A DNA stretch of 21,740 nt from a virus: IMG/VR virus record IMGVR_UViG_3300030389_004050, positions 1 through 21,740 of that record; one strand, written 5' to 3'. Under the pieces are notes generated by a model. The model made no database searches and was not told the origin of the DNA. It saw only the letters and a program-made list of their open reading frames with translations. This document shows, in pieces, positions 1 to 21,740 of this stretch (the first letter of the stretch is position 1; each line of letters opens with the position of its first letter). The position numbers were made by a program, and so were the translations under genes.

Positions 1-75
1 CTATCCCCGACCACGATATTTTCTCTCTCTCTTGATATAAAACCTTTCTCTCTCTCTTTTCAGGGAAATCCCCCA
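1..75. other. Leader with two CT-dinucleotide tracts upstream of small terminase
   Basis: This non-coding stretch holds two nearly identical pyrimidine tracts, at about 19-33 and 45-60, each a run of five or more TC units flanked by T runs. Each is preceded by GATAT (15-19 and 34-38), so the arrangement is an imperfect direct repeat with a period of roughly 20-25 bp. A Shine-Dalgarno-like AGGGAA lies at 62-67, before the ATG at 76. Small terminases often bind repeats close to their own gene, so a packaging-recognition role is possible but is inference. No convincing promoter is seen; TATAAA at 36-41 lacks a matching -35 box. Confidence 0.5.
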
Positions 76-576
76 ATGGCAGAACGCAAACGAAAATTAA
101 CACCCGACCAACGAAAGGAAATCGTTGAACTTCGCAAGAAAGGATGGACGGCAAAAAAAATCGCTGACAAGTTTGGATGTACTACAGCCAATGTTTTCTA
201 TTTGGTTCGAAAGAGCAAAGAGCGTGAAAAAATTACAAATTCGGATTCTCCTGGTAACCAAAAACCAAAAAGTTCATACGAGTTAGACCCCATCGAATTC
301 AGGATTTCCAAACTTCGGGAAATCGAAGGGGACATCTGTTTGGCACGGGACAAACAAATTATTCATTCCCTTCCAACCCTGCACAAACTTCATCTATTGG
401 TCCATGATGAAGTTCGTTCTTTGGTGGAACAATCGAAAGACATCCATGGGGAAAGCGCCGAACAATTGCAAGCGGAAATCGTCGACGTAATTCGAAACCT
501 ACCCCCGATTTTGAAACAGGGAATCATTGATGAAATCATGGTGGATGGAAATAACGTGGTGAGATTGAAAACATGA
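76..576 (+). CDS. terS: Probable terminase small subunit
   Basis: This 166-residue protein has a basic N-terminal helix-turn-helix (about residues 8-47, with the pattern KGWTAKKIADKFGCTTANVF) like those that recognise DNA in small terminases and resolvases. A charged, helix-rich remainder suits oligomerisation. Small terminases bind the packaging site on phage DNA and hand it to the large subunit. Its stop overlaps the start of the large terminase gene by 4 bp (ATGA), a translational-coupling arrangement that supports the assignment. Position and the helix-turn-helix are the main evidence; sequence conservation of this family is poor. A regulatory DNA-binding protein is the alternative. Confidence 0.75.
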   Translation: MAERKRKLTPDQRKEIVELRKKGWTAKKIADKFGCTTANVFYLVRKSKEREKITNSDSPGNQKPKSSYELDPIEFRISKLREIEGDICLARDKQIIHSLPTLHKLHLLVHDEVRSLVEQSKDIHGESAEQLQAEIVDVIRNLPPILKQGIIDEIMVDGNNVVRLKT

Positions 577-2042
577 CATTGGGACTTTCAAATCTAAGAC
601 TGTTATCCGCCGCCAAGAAAGCGCGCCAAATCCAAGACCTAGCGAATCAAAATCCTCTTCGGTTCTTTCGTCCGTCCCGTGTTCAAAGGCTGGTTTTAGA
701 GGCGACGGAGCCCATTGTTTTATTTCGCGCGGCCAACCAACTTGGGAAAACCATGGTGGGCGCGGCGTATTGTTTATATGCCATGTTGGGAAAAAACCCC
801 TATCAAAATCTAACGTCAGAACCACCCATCACCGTTTGGACAATTGTTCATTCGTGGGAACAATCTAAAATCATCCAACAAAAGGTCCATGATTTGGTCC
901 CCCCATCGATGTATGCCCATGATAGTCCCACATTCCAAGTGGGGCGTGGATACCGTGCCAAAAATCCATGGTTCAAATTAAAAAATGGGTCCATGATGTT
1001 TTTTAAGACCGCCAACCAGGGCACCTTGGGTGCGGCATCTGGAACCATCGATATCTGTTGGGTGGACGAACCATGTCCACAGTCCTTGTTTGGTGAATTG
1101 GTTGCAAGACTTCTTCGAAAGAATGGAAAAATGTTGATGACGATGACACCCGTGGGCGGTGGTGATTTGACGTGGTTGAAAAATATGACGGAATCCAAGC
1201 CACCAAAAATTCGAGACATCCATGCGGCGTTGACGGTAGAGAACACGACCCCCATCGATTTTGATGGGACGGAGCTTGGTGCTCTCTTATCACAAGCGGA
1301 TATCGATAGGGTGTCAGATACATATCTTTCAATAGACAAGGGGGCGCGCCTTGAGGGGTCGTGGGATGTTGGGGTCCCCATGGATGGACGAATCTTCGAA
1401 CATTTCAGTGAAGAAAACATTTCAGATGCACCATGTCCACAGGGTGAATATACATTCTCGATTGGAATAGACCATGGACACACCCCATCCGCCCAATGTG
1501 CGATTCTTGTCGCCATATCGGAGGACAAGACCATATATGTTCTAGACGAATATTTCGCGGCGGGTGGGAGCCAAGAACAGCTAACAGCAAATCGACATGC
1601 TCGAGCTATCATTGCCATGATTCGACGGAATGGATTGGATGTTTTACAAATAAACAGATGGACCGGTGACAGACCCCACGGCGGCGGGAAACATGGTGGT
1701 CGAATGTCGAATTCACTTCTTCGCTCTGCGTTGGAAGTGGCGTTGGATTTCCCACAGAACAATCTTCCCTTTCGAATCCATACCGCCCATAAGCCGCGCT
1801 GGTCAGTGTATTATGGATGTCAATTGATAAGTGAAGCAATTTGCCAAGGCAGATTTATCGTCCACCCCAAATGTACAAGGTTGATTCGTTCCATGACGTC
1901 GTGGGTGGTAAAAAAAACGGGTGCCATGGACCGCAATTCACAGTGGAAACATGCAATTGACGCCTGTAGATACGCAATCGTTCCCATCCTTGATAACAAA
2001 TTTAGAGCCCCCAAATTTAGCAAAATCCCAATGAGGCGGTAA
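573..2042 (+). CDS. terL: Terminase large subunit (packaging ATPase-nuclease)
   Basis: This is the motor ATPase that pumps DNA into the prohead and cuts the concatemer. The 489 residues show a Walker-A-like loop RAANQLGKT (52-60), a Walker B IDICWVDEP with catalytic D165-E166, and a coupling-motif-like MTMTP (189-193). The RNase-H-fold nuclease half has acidic residues at D300 (SIGIDHG), D325-E326 (VLDEY) and D463 (HAIDACRY). Length is normal for the family. The start overlaps the small terminase stop, and the portal gene follows immediately. A 304-codon open frame on the opposite strand (848-1762) is a shadow of this gene. Confidence 0.95.
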   Translation: MTLGLSNLRLLSAAKKARQIQDLANQNPLRFFRPSRVQRLVLEATEPIVLFRAANQLGKTMVGAAYCLYAMLGKNPYQNLTSEPPITVWTIVHSWEQSKIIQQKVHDLVPPSMYAHDSPTFQVGRGYRAKNPWFKLKNGSMMFFKTANQGTLGAASGTIDICWVDEPCPQSLFGELVARLLRKNGKMLMTMTPVGGGDLTWLKNMTESKPPKIRDIHAALTVENTTPIDFDGTELGALLSQADIDRVSDTYLSIDKGARLEGSWDVGVPMDGRIFEHFSEENISDAPCPQGEYTFSIGIDHGHTPSAQCAILVAISEDKTIYVLDEYFAAGGSQEQLTANRHARAIIAMIRRNGLDVLQINRWTGDRPHGGGKHGGRMSNSLLRSALEVALDFPQNNLPFRIHTAHKPRWSVYYGCQLISEAICQGRFIVHPKCTRLIRSMTSWVVKKTGAMDRNSQWKHAIDACRYAIVPILDNKFRAPKFSKIPMRR

Positions 2043-2043
2043 T

Positions 2044-3492
2044 ATGTACACAATGACCCCACAGATACCAACGTTTACAGACCAATACACCAATGCGCGC
2101 GTGGAATGTACGGCGCGCCGTCGACGACTCCTCGAGGGTTCGTGGGGTGAAGACCTCGAGCTTTTCCTTCAAACCCAAATCCCAATCGATAGACGTGGAA
2201 CGTGGGGGTCACTGGATATGTCATCCAACATTTTCAAAAGTGGATGTAAGGCCCTTTCTGTTCTGTATTCCACCACCCCATCCGTGGGAGTGGAACGACA
2301 AAAGGCACAGGCGGCGCGTCCATATATTGGTCCCCATGGAGTTCTTGACAATAGCCATTATTTTGAAATGATGTCCACCATCCAAATGTTCACCATTGGA
2401 CTGCGTGAAATGTTGGTCAGAATCGATATATCAGATGATAACGCTGTCATGTTTCGACCAGTGACCCCAGATATGGTATTTGCAAGCGCTCCAGCGGGAA
2501 ATCCCACAAAGGCAAACTATCTTTATGAATATAGACTTCGAAGAAATGATTCCACCGGCGAAGAGTTTTGGACGGCGGATATCTTTGACCTTCGAGACAA
2601 AAACAATCCGCGTTTCGAGGTTCGAAAGGTCGAAGCCGATGGCAAGTTTTCCGACGATGTGACGAACATTTTCCTTGGTGGTGATAGAAGTGGAAACAAT
2701 TATCCGTATCGTGATGGACAAGGTGTTCCATTCATTCCATGGGTTTTTTATCATGCCGCCATCACTGGAAAACTGTTTTCACCATATGAGCTGTCCGAAG
2801 TTGTGCAAGGTTCTTTCGTTGCGTCAACATATTACACATATCTGAAGCATCTAATGTTCGATGCAAGTTACCCACAACGATATACGACAATGCAATTGGC
2901 AGGATTATCCGCTGTAGATATAGGAACGAAAGCGGCACGGCTATCCGTTCCCACAGACCCAGCGTCTATTTTATGTTTTGCACCGGACCCAGATATATCG
3001 TCCCAACCCATCATTGGGCAATTCGCGGCGGGAATGGATGACCCGTTATCCATGATTTCAGCAATAACCACATATGAAAGACGACTAGCGGCCCAAATGG
3101 GCATTGACCCAGCCTCTGTGCAAAAAGTTTCGAGTGACCCACGAAGTGGGTATTCCATCGCAATGTCCATGGACGCGATGCGCTCCGCCCAAAAGAAGTA
3201 TGAACCCACCCAAAGAGTGGCAGATATTGAAGCGATTTCCATGGGTGCCATGGTTTCCAATGCCATTTTGGGAACCTCTTATCCTACAGATGGATATGTC
3301 ATATCGTATGAATCCATTCCACTGACAAAAGGGGAACGGAAAGCCCAAATAGAGAACACATTGGCATTGATGGCAAAGGGTTTGCTTGGACCCGTGGATG
3401 CGATGATGGATTTGTATCCAGAAATATCGACAGAAGAACAAGCGATGGAAAAACTTCGGCAAATCAAACAACAGAAAATAGAGTTTGCATAG
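2044..3492 (+). CDS. Probable portal protein
   Basis: The 482-residue product sits directly after the large terminase, where portal genes almost always lie, and has portal-like size. The portal is the dodecameric ring at one head vertex that docks the terminase and later the connector. Visible features are a charged N-terminus, a mixed alpha/beta middle with IPWVFYHAAITG (about residue 230), and a helical, Met-rich C-terminal third ending in a charged, Gln/Lys-rich helix, typical of portal stem and barrel regions. AGGCGG at 2034-2039 supports the ATG at 2044; a second in-frame ATG at 2053 is possible. Assigned from position, length and general character, not from a diagnostic motif. Confidence 0.8.
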   Translation: MYTMTPQIPTFTDQYTNARVECTARRRRLLEGSWGEDLELFLQTQIPIDRRGTWGSLDMSSNIFKSGCKALSVLYSTTPSVGVERQKAQAARPYIGPHGVLDNSHYFEMMSTIQMFTIGLREMLVRIDISDDNAVMFRPVTPDMVFASAPAGNPTKANYLYEYRLRRNDSTGEEFWTADIFDLRDKNNPRFEVRKVEADGKFSDDVTNIFLGGDRSGNNYPYRDGQGVPFIPWVFYHAAITGKLFSPYELSEVVQGSFVASTYYTYLKHLMFDASYPQRYTTMQLAGLSAVDIGTKAARLSVPTDPASILCFAPDPDISSQPIIGQFAAGMDDPLSMISAITTYERRLAAQMGIDPASVQKVSSDPRSGYSIAMSMDAMRSAQKKYEPTQRVADIEAISMGAMVSNAILGTSYPTDGYVISYESIPLTKGERKAQIENTLALMAKGLLGPVDAMMDLYPEISTEEQAMEKLRQIKQQKIEFA

Positions 3493-3502
3493 GAATAATA
3501 AA

Positions 3503-3994
3503 ATGGCAAAGATTCGAAAGGTTCCCAAAAAATATACAACTGGAATAGCAAAAAGCACAGCCGCAAAAAGAAAAGCGCAAATTCGAAAGCGGATGCGCGG
3601 TGATGTTCCAAAAAGCGAATTGTACAAACCCCTTCCAGGTGACACAAAAAAAACGACAAGGAAATCCAAATACACGACGTCGATGGGTGTTCTTCGAAAA
3701 AAAATTAGTGAAACAGGGAAAACCATAAAATCAGATAGCAACAAAACCAAATTCATACGCGCTACGGCAAAGGAAACCGGTATACCAACGGGAATCATTC
3801 GTTCAGTGTATGAACGAGGGCAAGCGGCATGGGCGACGGGTGGTCATCGTGTGGGGGCTACACAGGCGGCATGGTCGAAAGCGCGTGTTTATTCATTTTT
3901 ACAAAAGGGTAAAACAGCCATCACGGCAGATAAGGATTTGTATGCGAAAGCAAAAAAACAACAACGAGGAACAAAATTTAAGCTAAAAAAATAG
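3503..3994 (+). CDS. Basic conserved phage protein (DUF5824-like)
   Basis: A 163-residue, strongly basic protein. Its C-terminal half carries GIIRSVYERGQAAWATGGHR followed by GATQAAWSKARVYSFLQKG, a signature I associate with the unknown-function phage family DUF5824. ATG 3503 is chosen over an upstream TTG at 3485 because AGGA at 3491-3494 is well spaced from it. It lies between portal and scaffold, a slot that in many phages holds a prohead protease or minor head protein. No protease motif is evident. The function is unknown; the high lysine and arginine content would suit contact with DNA or with acidic scaffold. Confidence 0.8.
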   Translation: MAKIRKVPKKYTTGIAKSTAAKRKAQIRKRMRGDVPKSELYKPLPGDTKKTTRKSKYTTSMGVLRKKISETGKTIKSDSNKTKFIRATAKETGIPTGIIRSVYERGQAAWATGGHRVGATQAAWSKARVYSFLQKGKTAITADKDLYAKAKKQQRGTKFKLKK

Positions 3995-4005
3995 GAGCAA
4001 AAACC

Positions 4006-4683
4006 ATGAAAACAATAACACACGAAGGCCAAGAATATATCCTGAAATCAGATGTCGATGGGATTGTTCAATCGAGACTATCAAAAATTACAGAATCAAA
4101 AAGAATGGGCGAATCGAAGATTTTAGAACTCGAGGGACGGTTGGCACAGATGACCAAATCTATCGATGGGGTCGAGTCATTGAGAACAAAAATAACAGAG
4201 TTAGAATCATCATTGAAAACAGCGAATCAAAAATATGATAGACACAGCGCCATCACCCAATCTGGAATCACAAATCCAGAAGTCAGAGATTTGGTAGAAT
4301 GGCAATATACGAAAAGCATGGATGCCCTTCCCAAAAAAGACAGGGTTTCCATGGGTCACTGGTTGTCATCCATCCAAGAAACCGGACAGGTCCCCAAATT
4401 ATTGGCTCCGTATTTGTCACAACCAAACAGTGGAACAATTGAAGCCGGGACTCCAGAACAGCTTTCATCTTTGGCACAGGCCCAACCGGTTCCAGCCCAA
4501 CCGGTTCCAGCCCAACCGGTTCCAGCCCAACCGGTTCCAGCGACCAACGCTGGAGTTCAACCATCCCATGGAACGAATGCAAGCATACTAGAAAGAGCAT
4601 CTGATTATCAGTTTTTTAAGGCAAACCGCCAGAAAATCAAAGAAGCCTATTATGCAAAACGTGGCAACGTATGGCAAAAGTGA
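4006..4683 (+). CDS. Probable scaffolding protein
   Basis: A 225-residue, charged, helix-rich protein between portal and major capsid. Residues about 5-75 look like a coiled coil, with heptad-like Leu/Ile spacing in LELEGRLAQMTKSIDGVESL and KITELESSL. A Pro/Gln/Ala-rich linker with four tandem AQPVP units follows (about residues 159-178), then a short basic C-terminal tail ending in Lys-rich helices. This helical body plus a short basic C-terminus is typical of phage scaffolds, which bind coat protein through that tail and are lost before or during packaging. Located by context and architecture only. A GGAGCAA ribosome site precedes the ATG. Confidence 0.65.
   Translation: MKTITHEGQEYILKSDVDGIVQSRLSKITESKRMGESKILELEGRLAQMTKSIDGVESLRTKITELESSLKTANQKYDRHSAITQSGITNPEVRDLVEWQYTKSMDALPKKDRVSMGHWLSSIQETGQVPKLLAPYLSQPNSGTIEAGTPEQLSSLAQAQPVPAQPVPAQPVPAQPVPATNAGVQPSHGTNASILERASDYQFFKANRQKIKEAYYAKRGNVWQK
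4481..4540 (+). repeat. 15-bp tandem repeat, four perfect copies
   Basis: The unit cccaaccggttccag occurs four times without change at 4481-4495, 4496-4510, 4511-4525 and 4526-4540. It stays in frame and encodes four AQPVP pentapeptides in the linker of the scaffold-like protein. Identical codons in every copy indicate recent slippage or unequal recombination; copy number probably varies between relatives. Confidence 0.97.
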
Positions 4684-4740
4684 CCAATATCACAGCCTAT
4701 CGAATCAATGATATATATTATTTCAGGAAGGGCAAATACA

Positions 4741-4896
4741 ATGGCAAGAAAAAAAAGCGCCTACAAGAGCAAATCAAAAACGGCGAAGACGTCCCCATCT
4801 ATATCGAAGAAAATTCGACTTTTGAAAAAAGAAGGAAAAAAACAAAAACAAGCCGTGGCAATAGCCTTGTCCATGGCCAAAAAGAAGAAGAGGTGA
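4741..4896 (+). CDS. Small Lys-rich conserved phage protein
   Basis: A 51-residue, extremely basic peptide with the core KKIRLLKKEGKKQKQAVAIALSMA. This pattern of short basic helix, Gly turn and 'QAVAIALSMA' helix recurs in small proteins of phage head regions. ATG 4741 is chosen because AGGAAGG at 4725-4731 is ideally spaced; the in-frame ATG at 4708 has no ribosome site. An overlapping 85-codon frame starting at 4671 is rejected because it lacks a good ribosome site and has poor composition. Function unknown; a DNA- or capsid-bound minor protein is a guess. Confidence 0.65.
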   Translation: MARKKSAYKSKSKTAKTSPSISKKIRLLKKEGKKQKQAVAIALSMAKKKKR

Positions 4897-4900
4897 AAAA

Positions 4901-5209
4901 ATGGCAGCAATTGACCTTAGGACTTTGAACTATTCCAATGGCGGAGCCATGAAAAAGGTTTCGACTGGTACCAATATGCAACAAGTGATAATCCCGCGAT
5001 GGTGTAAGACGGTAACAATCCAACCCAAGGACCAAGCGATTTTTATGAATTATGATGGGACAGACGGCGCGGCCCCTTCAGGTGATTCGTTTCCGCAACC
5101 TGTGGACGTCATTATTCAATACAATCCACAAAAAACCCCCACCATCAATCAATCGATATTCTTTGCTGCGCAGGCTGGAACGGCGAATGTCTATTTGATA
5201 TTCGAATAG
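4901..5209 (+). CDS. Small beta-rich virion-type protein
   Basis: A 102-residue protein of alternating polar and hydrophobic residues suggesting a beta-sandwich, e.g. KTVTIQPKDQAIFMNYDG and a C-terminal NVYLIFE strand. AGAGGTGA just upstream, overlapping the previous stop, serves as its ribosome site. Such compact beta proteins between scaffold and capsid genes are often head decoration or fibre-base proteins. I do not recognise the family, and the role is inferred from position. Confidence 0.6.
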   Translation: MAAIDLRTLNYSNGGAMKKVSTGTNMQQVIIPRWCKTVTIQPKDQAIFMNYDGTDGAAPSGDSFPQPVDVIIQYNPQKTPTINQSIFFAAQAGTANVYLIFE

Positions 5210-5223
5210 AGAACGGGTGAACC

Positions 5224-5445
5224 ATGGCGATTCCAATCTATTCCCCATCCGGTGGGGAACAACAAACTACGACTGAATTCACAAATCAATCCAGTGTATC
5301 GATTTCACACAGTCTTTCCCACGTTCCACGGGTTATCATCACTGATTTATCAGGAAATGTAATCATGGGGGATATTCGATATACGTCCAATACAGTATCA
5401 ATAACCTTTGTGATTTCCACTTCAGGATACGTGTATATCACTTAA
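5224..5445 (+). CDS. Small beta-strand protein resembling the fibre C-terminal module
   Basis: A 73-residue protein preceded by GGGTGA. Its body (FTNQSSVSISHSLSHVPRVI...DLSGNVIMGDIRY) has the same order of elements as the last 65 or so residues of the next gene product (VTLTANVASTITHNLGKRLVH...DSGGNQIQLEVVY). Both have a strand, an SxSHSLxxxP or TITHNLxxR turn, a strand ending in D-x-S/G-G-N, and further strands. It thus looks like a free-standing copy of a fibre-tip module. It may be a fibre cap, a decoration protein or a trimerisation partner. The similarity is visible but modest. Confidence 0.6.
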   Translation: MAIPIYSPSGGEQQTTTEFTNQSSVSISHSLSHVPRVIITDLSGNVIMGDIRYTSNTVSITFVISTSGYVYIT

Positions 5446-5465
5446 TATATAGATGACCCTTACCC

Positions 5466-5482
5466 ATAGAATGGAGTTCTAT
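5466..5482 (+). promoter_or_regulatory. Hairpin presenting the fibre-gene ribosome site in its loop
   Basis: ATAGAA (5466-5471) and TTCTAT (5477-5482) form a 6-bp inverted repeat whose 5-nt loop is TGGAG, containing the GGAG (5473-5476) for the ATG at 5485. The Shine-Dalgarno sequence would be displayed in, or constrained by, the loop. The structure is visible; a regulatory effect is inference. Confidence 0.4.
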
Positions 5483-5484
5483 CA

Positions 5485-7191
5485 ATGCAATTTTATAATC
5501 CTACTGTAACGTTTAAAGGTTCTGTCATTTGCGAATCTGCCCCCAGTGGCAACACCGATTTGGTCAGAAAACAAGACGTTTCAGGTCTTTCCTTCATTTC
5601 AGCAATTGCCTCCGGCTCTTCGTCAATGTTGGACGTCACCAATGGTGAACTTTCGATTTCATCGTTGGCCCTTACAGATGTTCATGTCGATAATTCACAG
5701 ACAAGTCTCGCCAATTTCATTTCCAATGAATCATCCACAGCGGCGTCTCTTAAAGAAGGCGACGTTCTTGTTTTGACAGCCCCTTCCGATGGGACCGAGA
5801 CGTATATCGTTTCAGGTGCGGATGGTTCCAGCGCTTCCAACTACACCCAAATCGAAAGCCCTTTGACAGCCGCAGAAGTTGGTTCTGTTATTCAAGCCGG
5901 TGATGGGATTTCCATCAATTCATCCACCGCCCAAATCAGTGCAAACATCGCCGCTGGAACAGGTATTTCGTCCTCTGTCAACAGTGGACAAATCACCTTG
6001 GCTATCAATGCCACTTCAGACCAAATTTCAGAAGGAAGTTCGAATCTATTCTATACCAATGCCAGAAGTCGAAGCGCTCTTAGCGCCGCTACTGTCAGTG
6101 CTCCAGAAGTGCAACTTCTTACATACAACAGCGGAACCGGTGCTTTTTCCGTTCCTTTGTCGTCGATTTATTCAGAGTTTGCCGCTGGAACTGGTCTTTC
6201 CTATTCAAACGGAACCTATTCCATCAATGCCAACACTGACCAAATCACAGAAGGAAGTTCTAACCTATATTATACAGATGCCAGAAGTCGCGCCGCTTTA
6301 AGCGCTGGAACTGGCATTGCTTACAATAGTTCTACCGGTGCCATTAGTGCAAATCTTACCGGTGGAACCGCGATTGGAATCAGTGGCGCCACCATATCGT
6401 TCAACGGTTCCAGTGATGATGTATCAGAAGGAAGTTCCAATAAATACTTCACGGATGCCAGAAGCCGCGCCGCTATCAGTGCCGCTGCAGCCGGTGGTGG
6501 TGATGTTCAGCTGATGACCTATAACAATTCCAATGGTCAAATGGGTGTTCTTCGTTCTTCTGTTTTCAGTGAATTTAGTGGTGGAACCGCCATTTCATTC
6601 AATGCCGGAGTCATTGCCTTCAATGGTTCCAGTGATGATGTATCAGAAGGAAGTTCCAATAAATACTTCACGGATGCCAGAAGCCGCGCCGCTATCAGTG
6701 CCGCCACTGTCAGCGCTCCAGAAGTTCAGCTTCTGACATACAACAGTGGAACCGGTGCTCTTTCCGTTCCATTGTCGTCTATCTATTCAGAGTTTGCCGC
6801 TGGAACCGGTCTTTCCTATTCAAACGGAACCTATTCCATCAATGCCAACACTGACCAAATCACAGAAGGAAGTTCGAATTTATTCTTCACCGCTGCAAGA
6901 AGTCGAAGCGCCGTCACTGTTTCTTCTCAATCGGATGAACTTCTGAACTACAACAATGGAACCGGCGAATTCTCTCTTCGTTTGCAAGAACTTCGATTTG
7001 AAACCTCTGTCACATTGACTGCCAATGTCGCGTCCACCATCACCCACAACCTCGGAAAGAGATTGGTTCATGTTTCAGCGATGGACAGCGGTGGAAACCA
7101 AATCCAATTAGAAGTAGTGTATTCTTCCACATCGGCTTTGACCGTCAAATCTGCTGTGGGTGTTACTGTTTCACTTGCTGTATCAGTCTAA
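5485..7191 (+). CDS. Repetitive fibre-like structural protein
   Basis: A 568-residue protein rich in Ser, Ala, Gly and Thr. The motif EGSSN-[LK]-[FY][FY]T-x-ARSR occurs five times, with repeats beginning at 6019, 6238, 6415, 6634 and 6853; spacings are 219, 177, 219 and 219 bases. Between copies are GTGLSYSNGTYSINAN-type strands. Such EGS(T/S)NLYYT-ARxR repeats are known from phage tail fibres and related trimeric fibres. The last 65 or so residues form a separate beta module. Placement between scaffold and capsid genes, far from the tail-tip genes, suggests a head fibre or a transposed adhesin. No S74 chaperone or enzymatic motif is seen. A terminator follows. Confidence 0.8.
   Translation: MQFYNPTVTFKGSVICESAPSGNTDLVRKQDVSGLSFISAIASGSSSMLDVTNGELSISSLALTDVHVDNSQTSLANFISNESSTAASLKEGDVLVLTAPSDGTETYIVSGADGSSASNYTQIESPLTAAEVGSVIQAGDGISINSSTAQISANIAAGTGISSSVNSGQITLAINATSDQISEGSSNLFYTNARSRSALSAATVSAPEVQLLTYNSGTGAFSVPLSSIYSEFAAGTGLSYSNGTYSINANTDQITEGSSNLYYTDARSRAALSAGTGIAYNSSTGAISANLTGGTAIGISGATISFNGSSDDVSEGSSNKYFTDARSRAAISAAAAGGGDVQLMTYNNSNGQMGVLRSSVFSEFSGGTAISFNAGVIAFNGSSDDVSEGSSNKYFTDARSRAAISAATVSAPEVQLLTYNSGTGALSVPLSSIYSEFAAGTGLSYSNGTYSINANTDQITEGSSNLFFTAARSRSAVTVSSQSDELLNYNNGTGEFSLRLQELRFETSVTLTANVASTITHNLGKRLVHVSAMDSGGNQIQLEVVYSSTSALTVKSAVGVTVSLAVSV
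6091..6260 (+). repeat. Fibre long repeat, copy A (partner at 6706-6875)
   Basis: This segment recurs 615 bases downstream with only scattered, mostly silent differences. Its last 68 bases (6193-6260) are identical in the second copy (6808-6875). It encodes TVSAPEVQLLTYNSGTGA through the next EGSS motif. Divergence in the first part and identity in the second suggest duplication followed by partial gene conversion. Confidence 0.9.
6406..6485 (+). repeat. Exact 80-bp repeat, copy A (partner at 6625-6704)
   Basis: These 80 bases are identical to 6625-6704, offset 219 bases (73 codons). They encode GSSDDVSEGSSNKYFTDARSRAAISA-type sequence. Perfect identity, including silent positions, points to a recent duplication or gene conversion. 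Confidence 0.93.
6625..6704 (+). repeat. Exact 80-bp repeat, copy B (partner at 6406-6485)
   Basis: Second identical copy, located within the fibre-like gene and encoding its fourth EGSSN motif. Confidence 0.93.
6706..6875 (+). repeat. Fibre long repeat, copy B (partner at 6091-6260)
   Basis: Second copy of the 170-base segment, in frame (615 = 205 codons). It leads into the fifth EGSSN motif. Confidence 0.9.
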
Positions 7192-7225
7192 AATTTTGTT
7201 GTAGCCTATACCAGGAAAATGTTTT

Positions 7226-7260
7226 GGGGATGATATGTTGTTCATATCATCCCCATTTTT
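7226..7260 (+). terminator. Rho-independent terminator after the fibre gene
   Basis: A perfect 12-bp stem (ggggatgatatg at 7226-7237 with catatcatcccc at 7243-7254) and a 5-nt loop are followed by ATTTTT (7255-7260). On the minus strand the stem is followed by A-rich sequence, so it acts on + strand transcripts only. It ends the packaging/scaffold/fibre transcript 12 nt before the lipoprotein start codon, so that gene depends on readthrough or its own promoter. Confidence 0.9.
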
Positions 7261-7271
7261 ATGGAGTAGAA

Positions 7272-8118: not shown

Positions 8119-8145
8119 GGTTCACCAATGAAAAGGATATGATGT

Positions 8146-13138: not shown

Positions 13139-15372
13139 TGGCAGATATCAATAAGACGATTCAGATTTCATACCGTGCCGAGACAGCCAATTTGGTGTCT
13201 GGTTTGACCCGTGTGGGGAAAATTTCAGAATCTGAAGCACGTCGAATTATGACGTCCTTGGACAAGGCCTACGACAAGGCGTCGAAAGAAGCTGAAAAAA
13301 GCGCCAAGAAACAAGTTCGCGCGCTGGATACGGTTCAGAAAAAGAGCAAAAACCTTTCCACGTCGATGATTCGTGGGTTCGGTGAAATCTCTGGCGCCAT
13401 GGTTGCCGCTGGAGCGGCTGTATTGCTATTTGGGCAACAGATAGCAGACCTATCCAACCAATTGGTGGACGCGTCCACGAAGACGGGTGTGGGTGTCGAA
13501 ACACTTAGCGGTCTTCGTCTTGCCGCTGAAGGCGCAGGTTTATCATTTGAAGAACTCGAAATGGGATTGGTTCGTCTTCCCCAAATGATGGACAAAGCCG
13601 CCAACGGTTCCAAACAAGCCCAAAGAGCCTTTGACAGATTGGGTGTATCCATTGTGGACACATCCCAAGGTTTTGACGAGCTAAGAAGCGCGGATGATGT
13701 TCTGAAAGATATTTTTCATTCGTTGCAACAAGTGGAAAGCGCTGAAAAAAAGGCGGCGCTTGCATCTGAAATATTTGGAAGACAAGCGGGTCCCAAATTC
13801 ATCCAATCTGGAGCGCTGGACAACCTGGAAGCATTCACGACTTTGGCTACAGAGTTCGGGGTGTCCACGGGTCCCGACATGCAAAAGAACATGGCAGAGT
13901 TCCAGCGGATATCCGCTGCGACTTTAACTGTGGTCCAAGGTGAAATGCAACGTCTATTGGACACCATCACAGGCGCCGAGGATGGGCAAGGATTGAACAC
14001 AGCCATCATAGGAGCGGCAAAAAGTTTTATCTTCCTTGGAAATGTAGCGCGTGACACGTTGGTGGGACTTCAAGCGGCCTTTGGGATTGTTCTTGCTGGT
14101 TCTATGGGATTGGTGACGGTTTTAACTGACACATCGCCCGGCGGTTTCATCTCTGCAATGCAAAGTTTTGAGCAAATGGGGGAATTTATAGATTCGGCTG
14201 CGGAGCCTTCTGAAAATTTTGTTCACATGTTTTCCCGTGCAAGCGCGGAAATAGAAAAGTTTGATGCGGCACTCCAAAAAACATTGTCTTCACCCGCGCA
14301 AAATCGAAGCCGTTCCTCCGGTGCCAACCGTGCTACAGAGCTATCAAAACAAGCCACCATCCAACAAGACCTAACCGATTCGTCTAAGCTCTTATCGATG
14401 ATAGAGAACAAGATTTTGGAGGATGAAAAACGAATCACAAAAGAACGGCGCTCCCACCTTGACGTTCAAACATTGCGAAACATCCAAATCAATGAAGAAA
14501 TCGCGGCATTGATGGAAGAACAATCCCTGCTAAATGAATCGGTGGAATCATCTGTTCAACGTTTGCAAGCGATGGAACAGACGGCAGAGACAGAACAACT
14601 TATCAACGACCTATTGGAAAATAGAGACTTTCGACTATCGCAAATCGACCAACGATTGGAACAAATATCCGATAATTTGACGTCGATGACGTTTCAGATT
14701 TCAGATGATGATTTTGAAGCAGATATGGAAAAGGTCGATTCATTCTTGGAAAAGCAAAAAGAGCAACAAGAAGGAATCCAGGCGATAACACAGGCACTTC
14801 GGGACGGCGCTGTGGATGCCGCCGAAGAAACACAAATGGCATGGAACCGAACATTTCAGGACATCCACACAGGGATTGGAATGTTGGTCACTGGATTGAA
14901 TGTCGCTGGAGATTTGGTGGATGCCTATTCCCAGAAGAACCGCCACAACGCTGAATTGGTTTTCAATCTTCGAAAAGCGGCGGCGATTGCAGAGGTGGCA
15001 ATGCAAACAGCCATCAATGTCACAGAGGTTTTCCCCAATCCATTCCTGATAGCTGGAGCTGTGGCATTGGGCGCCGCTCAAACCGCCGTCATTGCCGCCG
15101 AACAACCACAGTTCCACATGGGTGGTATCGTGGGACCATCCAGTGGGTTGGCACCGGATGAAACATTTATCCGCGCCAAACAAGGCGAAGCGGTTTTGTC
15201 GTCATCGGTGGTGAATCGATTGGGTGAAGATGGAATCAACGCGTTGGAAAATGGAGCCATGACCCAACCTGTGGTCATCGTGACAAATCCATTCAAACAT
15301 TATGATAGATTTATTCGTGGACGAACCGCGATGGGGATGGGCACCACATCTTCAGGTCAAATAGGATATTGA
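13138..15372 (+). CDS. Tail tape measure protein
   Basis: A 744-residue protein that sets tail length and is later ejected. The N-terminal 80 residues are a charged coiled coil. Hydrophobic segments lie at about 82-100, 288-330 and 634-655. Residues 110-175 carry the tape-measure core pattern VDASTKTGVGVETLSGLRLA ... AFDRLGVSI. Residues about 395-620 are a long coiled coil. The C-terminus (about 659 on) shows FHMGGIVGPSSGLAPDETFI then RAKQGEAVLSSSVVNRLGED, the usual GGiv...pDt....GEaVl ending. At about 0.15 nm per residue this predicts a tail of about 110 nm. ATG 13138 overlaps the previous TGA; an upstream ATG at 13054 lies inside the preceding gene. Confidence 0.92.
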   Translation: MADINKTIQISYRAETANLVSGLTRVGKISESEARRIMTSLDKAYDKASKEAEKSAKKQVRALDTVQKKSKNLSTSMIRGFGEISGAMVAAGAAVLLFGQQIADLSNQLVDASTKTGVGVETLSGLRLAAEGAGLSFEELEMGLVRLPQMMDKAANGSKQAQRAFDRLGVSIVDTSQGFDELRSADDVLKDIFHSLQQVESAEKKAALASEIFGRQAGPKFIQSGALDNLEAFTTLATEFGVSTGPDMQKNMAEFQRISAATLTVVQGEMQRLLDTITGAEDGQGLNTAIIGAAKSFIFLGNVARDTLVGLQAAFGIVLAGSMGLVTVLTDTSPGGFISAMQSFEQMGEFIDSAAEPSENFVHMFSRASAEIEKFDAALQKTLSSPAQNRSRSSGANRATELSKQATIQQDLTDSSKLLSMIENKILEDEKRITKERRSHLDVQTLRNIQINEEIAALMEEQSLLNESVESSVQRLQAMEQTAETEQLINDLLENRDFRLSQIDQRLEQISDNLTSMTFQISDDDFEADMEKVDSFLEKQKEQQEGIQAITQALRDGAVDAAEETQMAWNRTFQDIHTGIGMLVTGLNVAGDLVDAYSQKNRHNAELVFNLRKAAAIAEVAMQTAINVTEVFPNPFLIAGAVALGAAQTAVIAAEQPQFHMGGIVGPSSGLAPDETFIRAKQGEAVLSSSVVNRLGEDGINALENGAMTQPVVIVTNPFKHYDRFIRGRTAMGMGTTSSGQIGY

Positions 15373-15376
15373 TACT

Positions 15377-18300
15377 ATGGCAAATGTAACACCGGAATTC
15401 ATTAGAGGATTCATTCTTCCCATGGACATGGGAAAACAAAATGAATGGACGGCAGAGTCTTCGTTTTCCCAACAAGGTCCCGCCGCTGGGGACCCTATAC
15501 CAGGTCAGCCGTCAAAAATGAGACTACAGGCGACGGGTGGACAATCGGCGACAGGTGATATAACAATCAAAACTAGAGCGGCGGGTGTCGCTGGTTTTGG
15601 TTCTCGGTTCACGTTCACGAACAACCCCATTTCCACCACGGTGGAATATGGGCGCGATTCGTTCAATGCCATATCAGGATTTGAATTTTTAAAGGTTGCC
15701 GGTGCCGTGGGAGTCACAGACCAATACACCATCCCCACGGCTATCACCACCACAGAGGATACCCTCTTGATTGGTTATCATAAAACCACGACAACCACGA
15801 CAGATGTGGCCATGGTGACCAGAATCCTCAAGGATGGGACAGCTTCAGATATTGTTATCCACACATCGATTGGTCTATCCACGAATCAAAATCTTCATCC
15901 GGTGATGTGCGAAATGATGGATGGGTCTATCATATATGTCCATGTATTGGAAAGCGCTGGAACCGCTAATATTCGCGTATATAGGTCCACGGATGACGGT
16001 GCCACGTGGTCCACGGTATCAAGAGAAGGGTTCGCCATTCCCATCGACGTGGGAACAACCAGCGGCGCCGGAACTCAAACATACGACATTCAACGCTTGC
16101 GAATGGCATCCGTCAATGGAACCATCTTGTTGTTGGTTGAAACCGACTACAACAACACATCCATAACGAAGCGAAATGTATTGTTTCAATATGTCTCCAT
16201 TGACGGCGGTGGAACGTTTCAGAAAATCACCACAGATTCCAATGCTACATCAAATTCATTTCGAAATGTGCATGTGTCGATTCGTGATGGGCGATTCGTC
16301 ATTGCATATACAGCGTCCACCGGCGCCGCCCATTTTATGGAACTACCCACCGGATATTCAAATATCCATCTGCTAAGACAAGCGAGCGCCTATTCGTCTT
16401 TGATTTCCATTGGTGGGTTGGCGACTGGAACCAATGATTATATGACCGGTGGTGATTCGTCTATGTGGTGTGATGAAGATGGTTCCATTTATGCGGTCTA
16501 TTATTCACATACCAGAGAGGATATGGTGGGACGGTATTCTAGCGATGGAATAACGTTCAAATACACCAATGGAAATTTTGATGTGGACAGAGCTCGAGTC
16601 ATTGATTTTGATGACAGCGCTACCCGACTTGTTTCCATATTTGGCCTGCGTTGGTTGGGTCGTTCCATTTTGCTGTCGTCGTGTTCCAGCGGTTCCAATG
16701 TGGACAATAGTTTACTTCTGACAATATTGGGCGGCTATTCCACGGTAAACCTTCCTAAATCATCATATACAGACGTCGAAGCAGATTGGGCGCGGGTTGG
16801 ATTCACTGATAATTATCTGCCTATCGACCTACCATCAAACATCACCGGATTGACGGTATCAGGAACGGGAAGCGATGCCCTTTCCAATGGGTTCCTTCGA
16901 ATCACGTCATCATTGGCACATCCACAGCACAGATACTATTCGTTCACCCTAGATTCCACGGGAACCGCATCCCAATATGTGACAGAGGGTATTATTGTTC
17001 GCGCATCATTTAAAGCGGTCACCGGTGGTGATTTGTCGGCCAATGTGAGGGGGATTATTCTGACCACGGATGACGGTTCCAGCGCAGATTATGAGGTTAT
17101 TCTATACGTCACCCCCACCCAGTTTAAGCTTCGCGATTCCAATGGTTCCACCGATTTGGGCACGGTTACATTTGATTCGACCAATGGGATTGACGTCATT
17201 ATTGCATTGCAAAACAACGACGTTTCCATGTGGTATCGCGCTATGGACAATGGAGAGCTTCGAACATGGTCGACGGGTCCTTCTTCCAATGCCTTGTCGA
17301 ATGGTGGTGGTTCCAGCGCTGGAAGCAAGGTCGAATTTGGTCACATCAATTATGTCAACGGAACGATGGAAACAGATTGGAATGAATGCCATGTTTCGAC
17401 GTTGGGCGCCACTGGTTTGCAAATGGCCACAGGTTTCACCAACCCCACAGATTTGAATAGTCGACCCTATCCACCCATTGGTCAATTCGTTTATGTGTTC
17501 GATGGGGTTTCCATATCGTCGACAGATGGACCCACATACGAAGGCGATTCGTTCAACATCACACCACAGTTTCGGTATCCCATCGACAACATTTACATGG
17601 ATGTCGTCCCATCCCCACGGGTGGGTTGGCGCTCCTTGGCGGTGACCAGTGGCTCCGTATCACAACAGAGTATCTCTTGGAAATTTGACCCAGATACATC
17701 GCATACCAACAAAGACAATTTCCCCAATGATTTGATGGGATTACACCTAAATCAAATCAATTGGATTTCAGGTGAACTTTTTTATTATGATGGTGGGTGG
17801 GTTTCCTTGGGAACCATCACAAATCAAATCCGTTCTTCATGTACGGTGACTGGAAGAACGGCTCGAGGCGCCGTGGGTATCACAGAGCCCTATTTCACGC
17901 TGAATGAATTGGTGGGGTGGACGTGTTATTTCCTCGAAAGCGGAAGCGCGACACGTCACTATCGCAAAATCACCGCAAATACTGAGGGGAAATTTGGAGG
18001 CACTGCGACTGGAACCAAGCAAGCTGTCATAACTTTGGATACACAGCCCCCACAAACATCCATCGCTGTCTATTTCATACCGCCCATCATATCCATCGTT
18101 ATGAACATGAATGGGAAAACATCGACAGGAATCAAATTGGTGGTGTCATCTCAGCAAACATACACCAACGATATTCGCATTGGTGAAATCGTCTTTGGTC
18201 CTTGCGTATTACCTGGTCGTCAGTATTCTAGGGGTAGAACCATCACCATGGAAAGCGGAACGACAACCATCGAAACACAGGACGGGATGAGGTATAGCAG

Positions 18301-18682
18301 AGAATACAAACCGCCCATCCGCGTGTTTCGTGTGGCATGGACAGATGGAATCGATACATCACAGCTACAAGGAGCGGAGCCCACCGTGGATACATGGATT
18401 TCCAGTTCCAGCGCTGGAGCACAGCCCATCGCGGTGAACAATGACGCTCCAGATTTGATGATGGAAACCGTGAAACTGTTACAGGGTGCCAAAAAACACT
18501 TCGTCTATTTGCCGCTTATTGTTCAAAACGACGACTTTCGAGTTTTGCAACGTCAATCCGAACAAGCATTGGTAACACTGGAAACAGATGTATCTATCGA
18601 AAGCATTGTAGGTTCTGAACTTCAAAATGGAACCGGTGAAGTTTTCAGAATCGCGTCCATCAATATGAAAGAGGTAAAATAA
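15377..18682 (+). CDS. Large tail protein with Asp-box propeller and lectin-like domain
   Basis: An 1101-residue protein. Residues about 100-480 look like a beta-propeller with three Asp boxes: STDDGATW (204-211), SIDGGGTF (274-281) and YSSDGITF (387-394), the turns seen in sialidases and other sugar-binding propellers. Residues about 530-670 look like a concanavalin-A-type jelly roll (IIVRASFKAVTGG, YEVILYVTPTQFKLRDSNGS, SKVEFGHINYV). The last 150 residues, from about SREYKPPIRVFRVAWTDG, resemble a tail-tip scaffold domain. It occupies the slot between tape measure and hub, where a distal tail protein is normal, so it may be a distal tail protein carrying carbohydrate-binding insertions. The sialidase catalytic Arg triad is not established. 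Confidence 0.7.
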   Translation: MANVTPEFIRGFILPMDMGKQNEWTAESSFSQQGPAAGDPIPGQPSKMRLQATGGQSATGDITIKTRAAGVAGFGSRFTFTNNPISTTVEYGRDSFNAISGFEFLKVAGAVGVTDQYTIPTAITTTEDTLLIGYHKTTTTTTDVAMVTRILKDGTASDIVIHTSIGLSTNQNLHPVMCEMMDGSIIYVHVLESAGTANIRVYRSTDDGATWSTVSREGFAIPIDVGTTSGAGTQTYDIQRLRMASVNGTILLLVETDYNNTSITKRNVLFQYVSIDGGGTFQKITTDSNATSNSFRNVHVSIRDGRFVIAYTASTGAAHFMELPTGYSNIHLLRQASAYSSLISIGGLATGTNDYMTGGDSSMWCDEDGSIYAVYYSHTREDMVGRYSSDGITFKYTNGNFDVDRARVIDFDDSATRLVSIFGLRWLGRSILLSSCSSGSNVDNSLLLTILGGYSTVNLPKSSYTDVEADWARVGFTDNYLPIDLPSNITGLTVSGTGSDALSNGFLRITSSLAHPQHRYYSFTLDSTGTASQYVTEGIIVRASFKAVTGGDLSANVRGIILTTDDGSSADYEVILYVTPTQFKLRDSNGSTDLGTVTFDSTNGIDVIIALQNNDVSMWYRAMDNGELRTWSTGPSSNALSNGGGSSAGSKVEFGHINYVNGTMETDWNECHVSTLGATGLQMATGFTNPTDLNSRPYPPIGQFVYVFDGVSISSTDGPTYEGDSFNITPQFRYPIDNIYMDVVPSPRVGWRSLAVTSGSVSQQSISWKFDPDTSHTNKDNFPNDLMGLHLNQINWISGELFYYDGGWVSLGTITNQIRSSCTVTGRTARGAVGITEPYFTLNELVGWTCYFLESGSATRHYRKITANTEGKFGGTATGTKQAVITLDTQPPQTSIAVYFIPPIISIVMNMNGKTSTGIKLVVSSQQTYTNDIRIGEIVFGPCVLPGRQYSRGRTITMESGTTTIETQDGMRYSREYKPPIRVFRVAWTDGIDTSQLQGAEPTVDTWISSSSAGAQPIAVNNDAPDLMMETVKLLQGAKKHFVYLPLIVQNDDFRVLQRQSEQALVTLETDVSIESIVGSELQNGTGEVFRIASINMKEVK

Positions 18683-20406
18683 TGCTGTCTCGTTTGGATT
18701 GGGTTGAAACAGATTTGATATGGACGATGGAAATCATTTATGGTGGGGAAACCTATCGGTTCGCCAACATCCCCATGGATTTGGTGGATGGCAATACATC
18801 TTATCCATACATGGGGGGATTAGAAGATGTGTCCATCGAATCCACCATGGAACGGGTGGGAAATGTTTCCAGTCAATCCAATTCCATTTCTATCGCTATC
18901 CGGTTTCCACACAGAAACATCGCGCAGGACGTGATGAATGGAAAGATTTTAGAAGGTTCGACGGCGGAGATTGGGTTCGTCTTGTCTCGTAAAGGGGAGA
19001 TTATCACCCCATGGGATGAAAAACCAACTGTTTTCCGTGGTGAAATCACATCCCCTGTGTATGGGCACCCCAACCAATCCGTGGGATATGTAGAATTTAG
19101 CATTGAAAACCCTGCGCTTATATCAGAACAAGGATTGTTATCGTCTATCATTGGAAAGAACATGTATATCGAAGATGTGTCGTGTTCGAATGCTCTTTAT
19201 GTGTCACCCGAGTGGCCACAGGATGCCGGATTGACAGAGGTTCAAGACATCCACCGCGGGAAGACGATTCCGTGGGTCTTTGGTGATTTGGGAGCCCTTA
19301 GAAGAAGCAATAACAACCAAATATCCATACCGATTTCCCCTTGTTATTGTATCGCCTACGACCCAGCTACGACTGGAAAACCTGTATATTATATCATCGC
19401 GGGACATGCGACGAATGCCACCACGGTGAAAGCGTTTTCAAATACAGGAGAGACACAGGACGGTGTATCTGTGTCGACCTTCATCAACATTGATGGGCGG
19501 GTGTTGTCTTACATTGCCATTCTTCAGTCTTCGTCCATTCCGCAAAGTGTAGCCGCTGGAGATGACCGACAGGTTTGGATAGAATGGGATGATGGGGACC
19601 CGTATCCCAATCCATTGGGGAACGGCGATGGGCTTCGCGGTGGTGGTGATATTTGCCTGTGGATGTTGCAACAAATCACGGATGACATCGATTTTGATGC
19701 GTGGAATGCTCTTCGCCCATTTTTAAACCAATACGAATTCGCCGGATGGGTCAATGACCCAAAAATCACGATTATCCAGTGGTTGAACAAAAACATCATT
19801 TCCTATCTGCCCATATCGGTGGTCAATGGTGGCAATGGGCTCAAGCCCATTTTGGATATGTTTGTCTCTCATGTTTCAACCGGTGAACGTTTAAACATCA
19901 TTTCAGGACCTGAATGGTTTCGCGCGGGTCCCATCACCACAGAGACAAATCCAGAGGACATCATAAACAATGTTACGGTTCGATATGGAAAAAATGGCGT
20001 AAATGGAACCTATTCCGTCTTTGTGCAATGTGGGCATGAGGTTCCAGCGATGGGGACCCTTTCTTCCCAAAGTTACACCGCCAACCCAAAATCATTGATA
20101 TCCGTTCAGCGTTATGGGGTGAAATCTCGAGTTGTCGAACTGGATTATTGCTATTCGATGGACACCGCGCAAAGGGTAGCCAATGATATAATCGAACGGG
20201 ATTCGATTCCAATTCGTTCCATTCAATACAGTGTATCATCTCGCTATGGGTATCTGAACATTGGTGATATAGTCAGCATAACAGATGAAGATATTGGACT
20301 CGATGACCACCGAAGTCAAATCCTTTCCAAGGTATGGGAGGAAGGAAGATGGGCATTGACTCTTCGTCTGGATGACAACCCGTTGACTTATACCAGGAAA
20401 AATTAA
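18682..20406 (+). CDS. Probable tail-tip hub protein
   Basis: A 574-residue protein starting 1 bp into the previous stop (TAATG). The N-terminal 160 residues are beta-rich (GGETYRFANIPMDLVDGNTS, SNSISIAIRFPHRNIAQDVM, VFRGEITSPVYG). The C-terminal 120 residues have LDYCYSMDTAQRVANDIIER, then SSRYGYLNIGDIVSITDEDI and WALTLRLDDNP. This 'A..ian.ii.r......v......l.iGDiv.itd' pattern is the usual end of baseplate-hub (gp27-like/J-like) proteins. It forms the ring closing the tube and holding the fibres. Position between the large tail protein and the lysis genes agrees. There is no lysozyme or peptidase domain. Confidence 0.72.
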   Translation: MLSRLDWVETDLIWTMEIIYGGETYRFANIPMDLVDGNTSYPYMGGLEDVSIESTMERVGNVSSQSNSISIAIRFPHRNIAQDVMNGKILEGSTAEIGFVLSRKGEIITPWDEKPTVFRGEITSPVYGHPNQSVGYVEFSIENPALISEQGLLSSIIGKNMYIEDVSCSNALYVSPEWPQDAGLTEVQDIHRGKTIPWVFGDLGALRRSNNNQISIPISPCYCIAYDPATTGKPVYYIIAGHATNATTVKAFSNTGETQDGVSVSTFINIDGRVLSYIAILQSSSIPQSVAAGDDRQVWIEWDDGDPYPNPLGNGDGLRGGGDICLWMLQQITDDIDFDAWNALRPFLNQYEFAGWVNDPKITIIQWLNKNIISYLPISVVNGGNGLKPILDMFVSHVSTGERLNIISGPEWFRAGPITTETNPEDIINNVTVRYGKNGVNGTYSVFVQCGHEVPAMGTLSSQSYTANPKSLISVQRYGVKSRVVELDYCYSMDTAQRVANDIIERDSIPIRSIQYSVSSRYGYLNIGDIVSITDEDIGLDDHRSQILSKVWEEGRWALTLRLDDNPLTYTRKN

Positions 20407-20407
20407 A

Positions 20408-20989
20408 ATGTGGAAACCCAAGATTCTTAACAAGATAGAAAAGATGGGCTACAAGGTGTTTGATGATGGTGATTATGATTTGAACATCATTGGGGTCCGT
20501 AATTTGGAGAATAATCCAAATGAATACGATGACAAATTGCATGTTTGCTATTTGTTGAAGGGTTCATGGCGCGAACATATTTTTCAAGTTTCCACAGACC
20601 CTGGCTCGTATTGGTTGACAAAAGAAGATTATAAAGGATGTGCTATCTATAAACACCCACAACAAGCTCGAGGTGCGTATATGATAGGAAAGCACTGCGG
20701 CAAATATGACGCGCTTGTTCAGGTGACACCCGTAGAATACTGGAGAGACTGGAACAAGGACAACAAGGCAGATTTTGAAGATGCTGGAAAGGTTCACAAA
20801 GCGAAGATAGGCCTGAACATTCATCGTTCCACAACATTGGATGTCGGTTCCCATGAGGTAAATCGCTGGTCGGCTGGATGCATCGTGTTCTCCAGAAAAA
20901 ACGAGTTTGATATATTCATGGAACTGTGCCGGAATCAGGTCAAGCATTTGAACTATCGAACCTTCAGTTTTACCCTCATCGCGGAGTAA
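20408..20989 (+). CDS. L,D-transpeptidase (YkuD)-like protein, candidate lysin
   Basis: A 193-residue protein with no signal peptide. Residues 134-160 read IGLNIHR ... VNRWSAGCIVF, giving H139-X15-S155-A-G-C158, close to the YkuD signature HX14-17(S/T)xGC with C158 as the putative nucleophile. The N-terminal half has charged helices and a beta core (DDKLHVCYLLKGSWREHIFQ). Such GxNIHR...RWSAGC proteins are common in environmental phages. YkuD enzymes cut or join meso-DAP crosslinks in peptidoglycan, so an endolysin or virion wall-cutting role is reasonable. A holin-like gene follows within 3 bp. It lacks the His-Gly pair of canonical YkuD (SAGC, not SHGC). Confidence 0.65.
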   Translation: MWKPKILNKIEKMGYKVFDDGDYDLNIIGVRNLENNPNEYDDKLHVCYLLKGSWREHIFQVSTDPGSYWLTKEDYKGCAIYKHPQQARGAYMIGKHCGKYDALVQVTPVEYWRDWNKDNKADFEDAGKVHKAKIGLNIHRSTTLDVGSHEVNRWSAGCIVFSRKNEFDIFMELCRNQVKHLNYRTFSFTLIAE

Positions 20990-20991
20990 CA

Positions 20992-21372
20992 ATGACCCAA
21001 GATTTTCAGGATATAGCACTCCAATTATTCGTCAATTCTCCCTTTGTTGGGTTCTTGCTGTATCAGTGGTGGGATTCTCGCAAGCTGTACCGAGAACAAC
21101 GAATCGAGATGAAGGAAATCAGGAAAGAAGCAAAAGAAGAAGAACTCAAGCTCCGCGAAAGATTCGATGCCGTCATCAAGTCATTGAACGAAGACAAAGA
21201 CCAATTGGTTTTGTCATTGGAACGACGAATCCAAGCATTGGAAAAGCGATTCGAGTCGGTGGAAAGGAGCGTAAAAAAATTGTTTGCAACCATCCAAGAA
21301 CTTCGAGGTGTGAAAGACAAGTTGGAAAAAATAGAGATGAAGGAGGAGCTCAGAAAAGAACTTTGTTCCTAG
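20992..21372 (+). CDS. Holin-like membrane protein with coiled coil
   Basis: The 126-residue product has one probable membrane helix (ALQLFVNSPFVGFLLYQWW, about residues 9-27) and then a long, highly charged coiled coil (35-115). This N-terminal membrane helix plus cytoplasmic coiled coil is the layout of BhlA/UviB-type and XhlA-type holin-related proteins. GGAG upstream supports ATG 20992; an earlier in-frame ATG at 20926 lies in the preceding gene. Adjacency to a candidate lysin strengthens a lysis role. A spanin subunit or a membrane anchor for other proteins is the alternative. Its last 23 bases overlap the converging methyltransferase gene. Confidence 0.55.
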   Translation: MTQDFQDIALQLFVNSPFVGFLLYQWWDSRKLYREQRIEMKEIRKEAKEEELKLRERFDAVIKSLNEDKDQLVLSLERRIQALEKRFESVERSVKKLFATIQELRGVKDKLEKIEMKEELRKELCS

Positions 21373-21740
21373 AGGTTGAGAACAGCTGGAGCTGTGATTT
21401 GTGACGCTCTATCCGTTCCAATGATTTTTCATGAAATTCCTTGTCGATTTCATATCCCACAAAATCAAGATTCATGCCCATATTGTGGGCGGCGATGGCA
21501 CTGGAACCACTGCCCAGATGGGTGTCTAAAATCTTCCAATTTGGTTTTGCCAACAAGGAAAACACGTATTCATATAAAGCGATGGGCTTCTGTGTTGGGT
21601 GGATTCGTTTCACGGGTTCGCATTTTTTATATCCAGACCACAATAGTTTCACCATCTCCACGTGTCCCATGGCATTGGTCCACGCCAATTCACATTTCGA
21701 CAGCGTTGGCAATGATACAACCTTATCCCAAACAATCCAC
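21350..21740 (-). CDS. DNA N6/N4-methyltransferase, C-terminal part (truncated by window edge)
   Basis: On the minus strand an open frame enters from the right edge (at 21739) and ends in TGA at 21352-21350. It reads WIVWDKVVSLPTLSKCELAW, RIHPTQKP, then WKILDTHLGSGSSAIAAHNM and FVGYEIDKEFHEKSLERI. DTHLGSGSS is the AdoMet-binding motif I (usual FxGxG), and HPTQKP is the hallmark segment before it. This order is that of the beta class of amino-methyltransferases; the DPPY catalytic motif must lie upstream, outside the window. It methylates adenine or cytosine in DNA, probably to evade restriction. It converges on the holin-like gene with a 23-bp overlap. Confidence 0.85.
   Translation of the reverse strand, partial: WIVWDKVVSLPTLSKCELAWTNAMGHVEMVKLLWSGYKKCEPVKRIHPTQKPIALYEYVFSLLAKPNWKILDTHLGSGSSAIAAHNMGMNLDFVGYEIDKEFHEKSLERIERHKSQLQLFSTSRNKVLF

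Follow-up and report, generated by a model that had tools for sequence, protein, structure and literature searches.

Total absence of GATC in phages that carry a small predicted nuclease gene suggests a phage-encoded orphan GATC endonuclease

The DNA stretch analysed here, referred to as the window, is a 21,740 bp fragment from an uncultured phage (IMG/VR record IMGVR_UViG_3300030389_004050). It covers the structural half of the genome of a tailed phage, where PHROG and Pfam matches identify genes for terminase, capsid and tape measure, and it is devoid of the tetranucleotide GATC. The subject of this work is that absence, together with a small putative nuclease encoded by the relatives of the window and by other phages, whose gene accompanies it. 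The features of the window on which the argument leans are the following:

1..21740, no strand: whole window; GATC wholly absent, 0 versus 116.7 expected
573..2042, + strand: terminase large subunit (TerL); phrog_2, E 2e-16, and PF03237
21350..21740, - strand: C-terminal part of a beta-class N6_N4 DNA methyltransferase, truncated by the window end; PF01555, E 1.8e-12

Under a second-order Markov model built from the window's own trinucleotides, GATC is the lowest of all 4-mers (z = -14.4) and the only one wholly absent among the most depleted words, the next being TCGG with 29 copies versus 78 expected. The initial annotation had noticed the lack of GATC, and the exact count bears it out; its figure of about 80 expected sites was an underestimate. 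It had also reported that GGCC, AGCT and GTAC do occur and that the window holds part of a phage DNA methyltransferase. Both statements are correct: the methyltransferase is real and the three words are found 22, 37 and 16 times, GGCC being moderately low (57 expected) and AGCT and GTAC only mildly depleted (48 and 28 expected).

The same absence extends to the lineage of the window. Its TerL, used as query, found both GATC-free relatives and a GATC-containing sister clade, and eleven related full contigs, each with no GATC, give together with the window 0 sites versus 1,356 expected. Among the TerL-related loci, 30/32 have no GATC, and the remaining two contain two sites each, located ~150 bp or less from contig ends. 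The stray sites of L009, L014 and L059 sit at contig ends; in L059 the sole GATC of the contig lies at its start (L059:15-26) within CTCTTCCGATCT, which resembles leftover sequencing adapter. An assembly or library artefact was rejected as the cause of the absence, which is seen consistently across dozens of independent metagenomes and in cultured genomes. The sister clade, reached in a profile scan at ~54% TerL identity, contains GATC at ~0.4-0.8 of expectation (for example 153/227, 148/207 and 90/207), and the trait is therefore lineage-specific. Cultured phages gave no DNA match to the window by megablast and only distant TerL matches (22-26% identity), and a scan with the capsid protein retrieved no relatives, though related contigs encode one.

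The way in which GATC is avoided can be read from codon usage. In the GATC-free clade, whenever the codon after Asp begins with C, Asp is encoded by GAC (359 cases) and never by GAT, versus 82% GAT in other contexts; Ile following a G-ending codon is never ATC (0/902), versus 39% elsewhere, and the NGA-TCN combination has a count of 0. The same contexts in the sister clade yield 82% GAT, 14% ATC and 139 cases of NGA-TCN. GATC is thus avoided via codon choice, which argues that selection targets the DNA word itself, in agreement with the strong selection against GATC that the initial annotation had claimed.

Comparison of gene content between the two clades leaves only three genes present in 5/5 GATC-free genomes and in 0/3 sister genomes, namely those for a fibre, a coiled-coil protein and the nuclease, the last of which recurs elsewhere. 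It is an uncharacterised protein of 186-196 amino acids, found in 5/5 near-complete GATC-free genomes (28-31 kb), and its motif DI...EVKED...TGN...E is, judged from sequence, typical of PD-(D/E)xK nucleases. No match to it was found in eight sister-group contigs, three of which measure 25-30 kb. In the near-complete relatives mapped (G006, G007, G008, G010 and G011), the gene lies ~4-7 kb past the methyltransferase in four, whereas G011 has it at the opposite side of that region; this occurrence in 5/5 relatives points to its presence in the window's own genome as well. The phage methyltransferase was also considered as the cause of the absence and was rejected, a homologue being encoded by one of the three GATC-containing sister genomes (G013).

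Outside the lineage, a scan with the lineage nuclease retrieved a single distant contig, G012 (90,410 bp; GATC 0 versus 213 expected), whose protein was then used to find cultured or named phages with a homologue. The first eight of these, comprising the Xanthomonas jumbo phage XacN1, the pelagiphages HTVC019P, Eistla, HTVC115P and HTVC031P, the SAR116 phage HMO-2011, and phages C75C1 and C72C1, show no GATC in any of the stretches read, and the entire XacN1 genome (384,670 bp, GC 50%) has 0 sites versus 1,441 expected. A further set of 16 records consisted of five taken from homologue lists and eleven taken as presumed negatives, their GATC counts not being known beforehand; the profile finds the gene in five, all of them GATC-free (5/5), and the 11/16 records without the gene all contain GATC, with 21-217 sites each. 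The roseophage CRP-143 is among the GATC-free phages selected for the homologue. The hosts of gene-bearing phages range over SAR11, SAR116, Rhodobacterales and Xanthomonas. Several strains are hosts to both gene-bearing and gene-free phages (SAR11 HTCC1062, HTCC7211 and FZCC0015, and roseobacter FZCC0023). Metagenomic loci selected for the gene lack GATC in 86/88 cases (78/80 plus 8/8, the latter set including the 90-kb contig again), and one IMG/VR scan returned >530 loci with the nuclease gene; a nine-member alignment being too diverse for scanning the collection, narrower alignments were used. Across 21 gene-bearing sequences, among which the window is counted by inference, GATC is the sole 4-mer missing from all. 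The corresponding Fisher test (21/21 versus 0/16) gives 8e-11, a figure that is too small because the gene-bearing phages are related. The nuclease gene is the shared predictor of GATC absence across unrelated phages and hosts.

The phage versions of the protein, among them HTVC019P gp20, HMO-2011 gp19 and the window-lineage copy at 28109-28678 of G008, span ~115-196 amino acids. One short version (L184) and the version of the window's lineage were modelled with AlphaFold; the two models, with predicted local distance difference test (pLDDT) scores of 86.8 and 88.7, both present a PD-(D/E)xK core of a helix, a beta sheet and flanking helices. The E-x-K motif is invariant in all 12-14 aligned members, together with a Glu in the first helix, and the upstream Asp (DI/DL) is found in the longer forms, being not resolved in the shortest. 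By this predicted core fold and catalytic motif, the protein is assigned to the PD-(D/E)xK nuclease superfamily. Its fold neighbours are archaeal Hjc resolvases, the homing endonuclease I-Ssp6803I and several restriction enzymes; the closest solved structures are Hjc (Z 9.2, root-mean-square deviation 2.7 over 97; Z 10.6, 3.5 over 123), I-Ssp6803I (Z 9.0) and HinP1I (Z 7.8), all with middling Z. DpnI is among the fold matches listed (Z 5.5-5.9), and MutH/Sau3AI, MboI and DpnII are not, which is no sign of a difference from them. The predicted fold alone cannot separate a resolvase from a restriction enzyme. No sequence match of the nuclease to R.DpnII or MboI was seen, Pfam, PHROGs and PADLOC gave no named function for the window-lineage version, and an AcrF8 match in a profile search of PDB sequences (E 0.017) was weak and taken as chance.

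In pelagiphages and HMO-2011-type phages the protein is annotated as hypothetical. Its gene stands directly before an exonuclease gene in pelagiphages, adjoins an exonuclease gene and also a DNA methyltransferase gene of unspecified type in C75C1, and is located among recombinase-, single-stranded DNA-binding protein (SSB)- and helicase-like genes in G012. In the subset of genomes whose surroundings were read, no Dam-type methyltransferase lies beside the phage nuclease genes.

For bacterial homologues, one scan of 84,980 species genomes returned three loci. In L267 and L268, from Cytophagales-type metagenome-assembled genomes (Bacteroidota), the homologue is flanked on one side by a DUF6997 gene and on the other by an N6_N4 methyltransferase gene, the only methyltransferase gene beside it in L268; L267 also has an adjoining Dam-family methyltransferase, of the Dam/DpnM type, whose closest PDB sequence is M.DpnII. 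Both contigs are GATC-poor (2 of 31 and 2 of 38), and their neighbourhood is apparently a GATC restriction-modification setting. The DUF6996/DUF6997 proteins next to the homologue and the adenine methyltransferases (L267:3926-4726 and L268:9451-9993) may themselves be restriction-modification components. A pelagiphage-like copy at the edge of a Flavobacteriaceae contig (L269) was taken as chimeric, and the G340 match (L272), with 0 GATC in 3.4 kb and beside a DNA polymerase III-like gene, may be a phage contig.

The explanation that we consider best, and probable on this sequence evidence, is that the nuclease is a phage-encoded orphan PD-(D/E)xK GATC endonuclease, to which the phage would be immune by site elimination. 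The window's lineage would encode this small GATC-recognising enzyme beyond the window, and since such an enzyme would also attack the DNA of the phage that makes it, every GATC would have been purged from the phage genome, largely through synonymous changes of codons; once purged, the genome would need no protective methyltransferase for GATC. The enzyme would cut any GATC-containing DNA in the cell, the most likely target being the host chromosome, where cleavage would provide an entry point for exonucleases and allow nucleotide recycling, and competing phages would be cut too. In pelagiphages the gene immediately precedes that of the exonuclease, which fits such host DNA breakdown, and the enzyme probably cuts unmethylated GATC, given that the bacterial homologues accompany adenine methyltransferases. 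We infer cleavage activity, GATC as the exact target, the preference for unmethylated over methylated GATC and the biological use, the proposed specificity deriving from the total absence of GATC in gene-bearing genomes. It is also likely that these proteins form a widespread family of phage orphan GATC endonucleases, for which the total elimination of a 4-bp word, in genomes of up to 385 kb, would be the sole mark separating self from non-self DNA; acquiring the gene would then either force the purge or be open only to GATC-purged genomes.

Several observations weigh against an orphan GATC endonuclease. The gene is not within the window itself, the short phage versions are remote in sequence from the protein of the window's lineage (~20-25% identity), and the closest folds are as much those of Holliday junction resolvases as those of restriction enzymes. 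The DUF6997 neighbour in L267 and L268 could be the true restriction enzyme of those loci. The gene-bearing phages are partly related, so their counts are not independent, and some cases depart from the rule: L107 has two GATC despite the gene, and L124, with an intact gene, has 11 (25 expected). The nuclease segment of L124 is 99-100% identical to that of L125 and its flanks 79-89%, a pattern that a recent acquisition of the gene or a chimeric contig would produce. Conversely, HTVC008M has 21 GATC of 109 expected and no detected homologue, which means that other causes of avoidance exist.

Among the alternatives, the one that survives best is compatible with an orphan GATC endonuclease and concerns its use: the GATC-cutting nuclease might mainly destroy competing phages or plasmids and not host DNA. 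We hold this only tentatively. The GATC restriction-modification system of Marseillevirus degrades the DNA of other viruses and not that of the host (PMC7253447), and many phages on the same hosts are GATC-rich, but several pelagiphages, and C75C1 too, have the nuclease gene next to that of the exonuclease, an arrangement suiting the breakdown of DNA for nucleotides.

The classical account of site avoidance, in which phages lose GATC to escape DpnII/MboI-type or DpnI-type enzymes of their hosts, is improbable here. Site elimination is a known anti-restriction strategy (PMC6286503), and host restriction may apply to the window's own lineage. Nonetheless, GATC is at normal levels in gene-free phages on the same SAR11 and roseobacter strains, the hosts of gene-bearing phages are diverse, and the passages found in a marine methylation study (PMC9516812) indicate that restriction-modification systems are not reported in SAR11 genomes. 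Since phages of the same host differ according to a phage gene, host restriction is not the general driver and the avoided word, judged from the phage genomes, does not behave as the target of a host enzyme; the same contrast speaks against the host restriction system or Dam-dependent host process that the initial annotation had offered as the cause.

It is highly improbable that the nuclease is a structure-specific Holliday junction resolvase whose link to GATC absence is indirect. Its predicted fold is closest to that of archaeal Hjc, and the G012 gene keeps company with recombination-type genes, but resolvases are already encoded (RusA, PF05866, in the window's relatives and endonuclease I in pelagiphages), an unspecific resolvase gives no reason for total GATC loss in unrelated genomes, and the homologues in bacteria have adenine methyltransferases as neighbours. 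Escape from host methyl-directed mismatch repair (MutH/Dam) can be dismissed almost entirely, as it would not track one phage gene among same-host phages, and the use of Dam/MutH is not known in alphaproteobacterial hosts. That escape has been discussed for phiX174 (5.4 kb), which lacks GATC and in which restored sites lower the mutation rate (PMC5014478).

The proposed endonuclease can be compared with several known systems. Chlorovirus PBCV-1 (CviAI) and Marseilleviridae have GATC restriction-modification systems, in which the virus protects itself by methylation (PMC7248222, PMC7253447). They share with the phages described here a virus-encoded GATC-directed restriction function, here a putative one; unlike these viruses of algae and amoebae, whose own GATC sites are guarded by a cognate adenine methyltransferase, the present phages infect bacteria and have no GATC at all. 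As in DpnII/MboI-type systems, a bacterial homologue clusters with an N6_N4 and a Dam-family methyltransferase nearest M.DpnII, but the phage versions are much smaller and have no Dam-type partner in the genomes examined. In the complete loss of a 4-bp palindrome, these phage genomes resemble the cases of Rusinov 2018 and phiX174 (PMC6286503, PMC5014478), with the difference that the proposed driver there is a host enzyme and the predictor here is the phage's own gene, and that the absence here reaches 385 kb. T7 endonuclease I with its exonuclease and T4 endonucleases II and IV are likewise nucleases thought to convert host DNA to nucleotides. T4 spares its own DNA by modified cytosine, unlike the self-protection proposed here, which is the absence of the recognition site.

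The literature searched, beyond which subscription papers and preprints lay, yielded no report of the nuclease family, its target or its link to GATC; the XacN1 paper does not mention GATC, nor do the passages found in PMC9516812 mention GATC depletion. What appears to be new is the proposed virus-encoded restriction-like nuclease self-protected by site elimination, virus GATC restriction and phage site elimination being already known. If true, it would give a function and a target to a hypothetical protein of two common ocean phage groups, the pelagiphages and the HMO-2011-type phages, reveal a new way for a phage nuclease to spare its own genome, by removing the site and not by modifying a base, and explain GATC-free genomes without a host enzyme under a simple rule: gene present, GATC absent. 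It also cautions that site avoidance in phages is not safe evidence of host restriction.

Some further observations concern other words in the GATC-free genomes. HTVC011P, HTVC025P, HTVC168P, Eistla, HTVC031P and HTVC019P (loci L231-L232, L236-L237, L240-L241, L098, L100 and L096) are nearly GANTC-free as well, with 0-6 sites, while the likewise GATC-free HTVC115P and KM23-C739 hold 86 and 63 sites; depletion of GANTC in pelagiphages is described in the passages found in PMC9516812. Among the 21 gene-bearing sequences, about half of the genomes with at least 8 expected lack CCTGG and CCAGG, and GGCC is often low. As for the methyltransferases of the lineage (window 21350-21740; G001, G006-G008, G010 and G011), their ends are near-identical and their middle, the target recognition region, is strongly divergent, as if target specificity had been swapped, and in G001 and G011 the methyltransferase is found in two tandem copies. 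Finally, the putative scaffolding protein of the window (4006-4683) contains a short run of identical PAQPV repeats.

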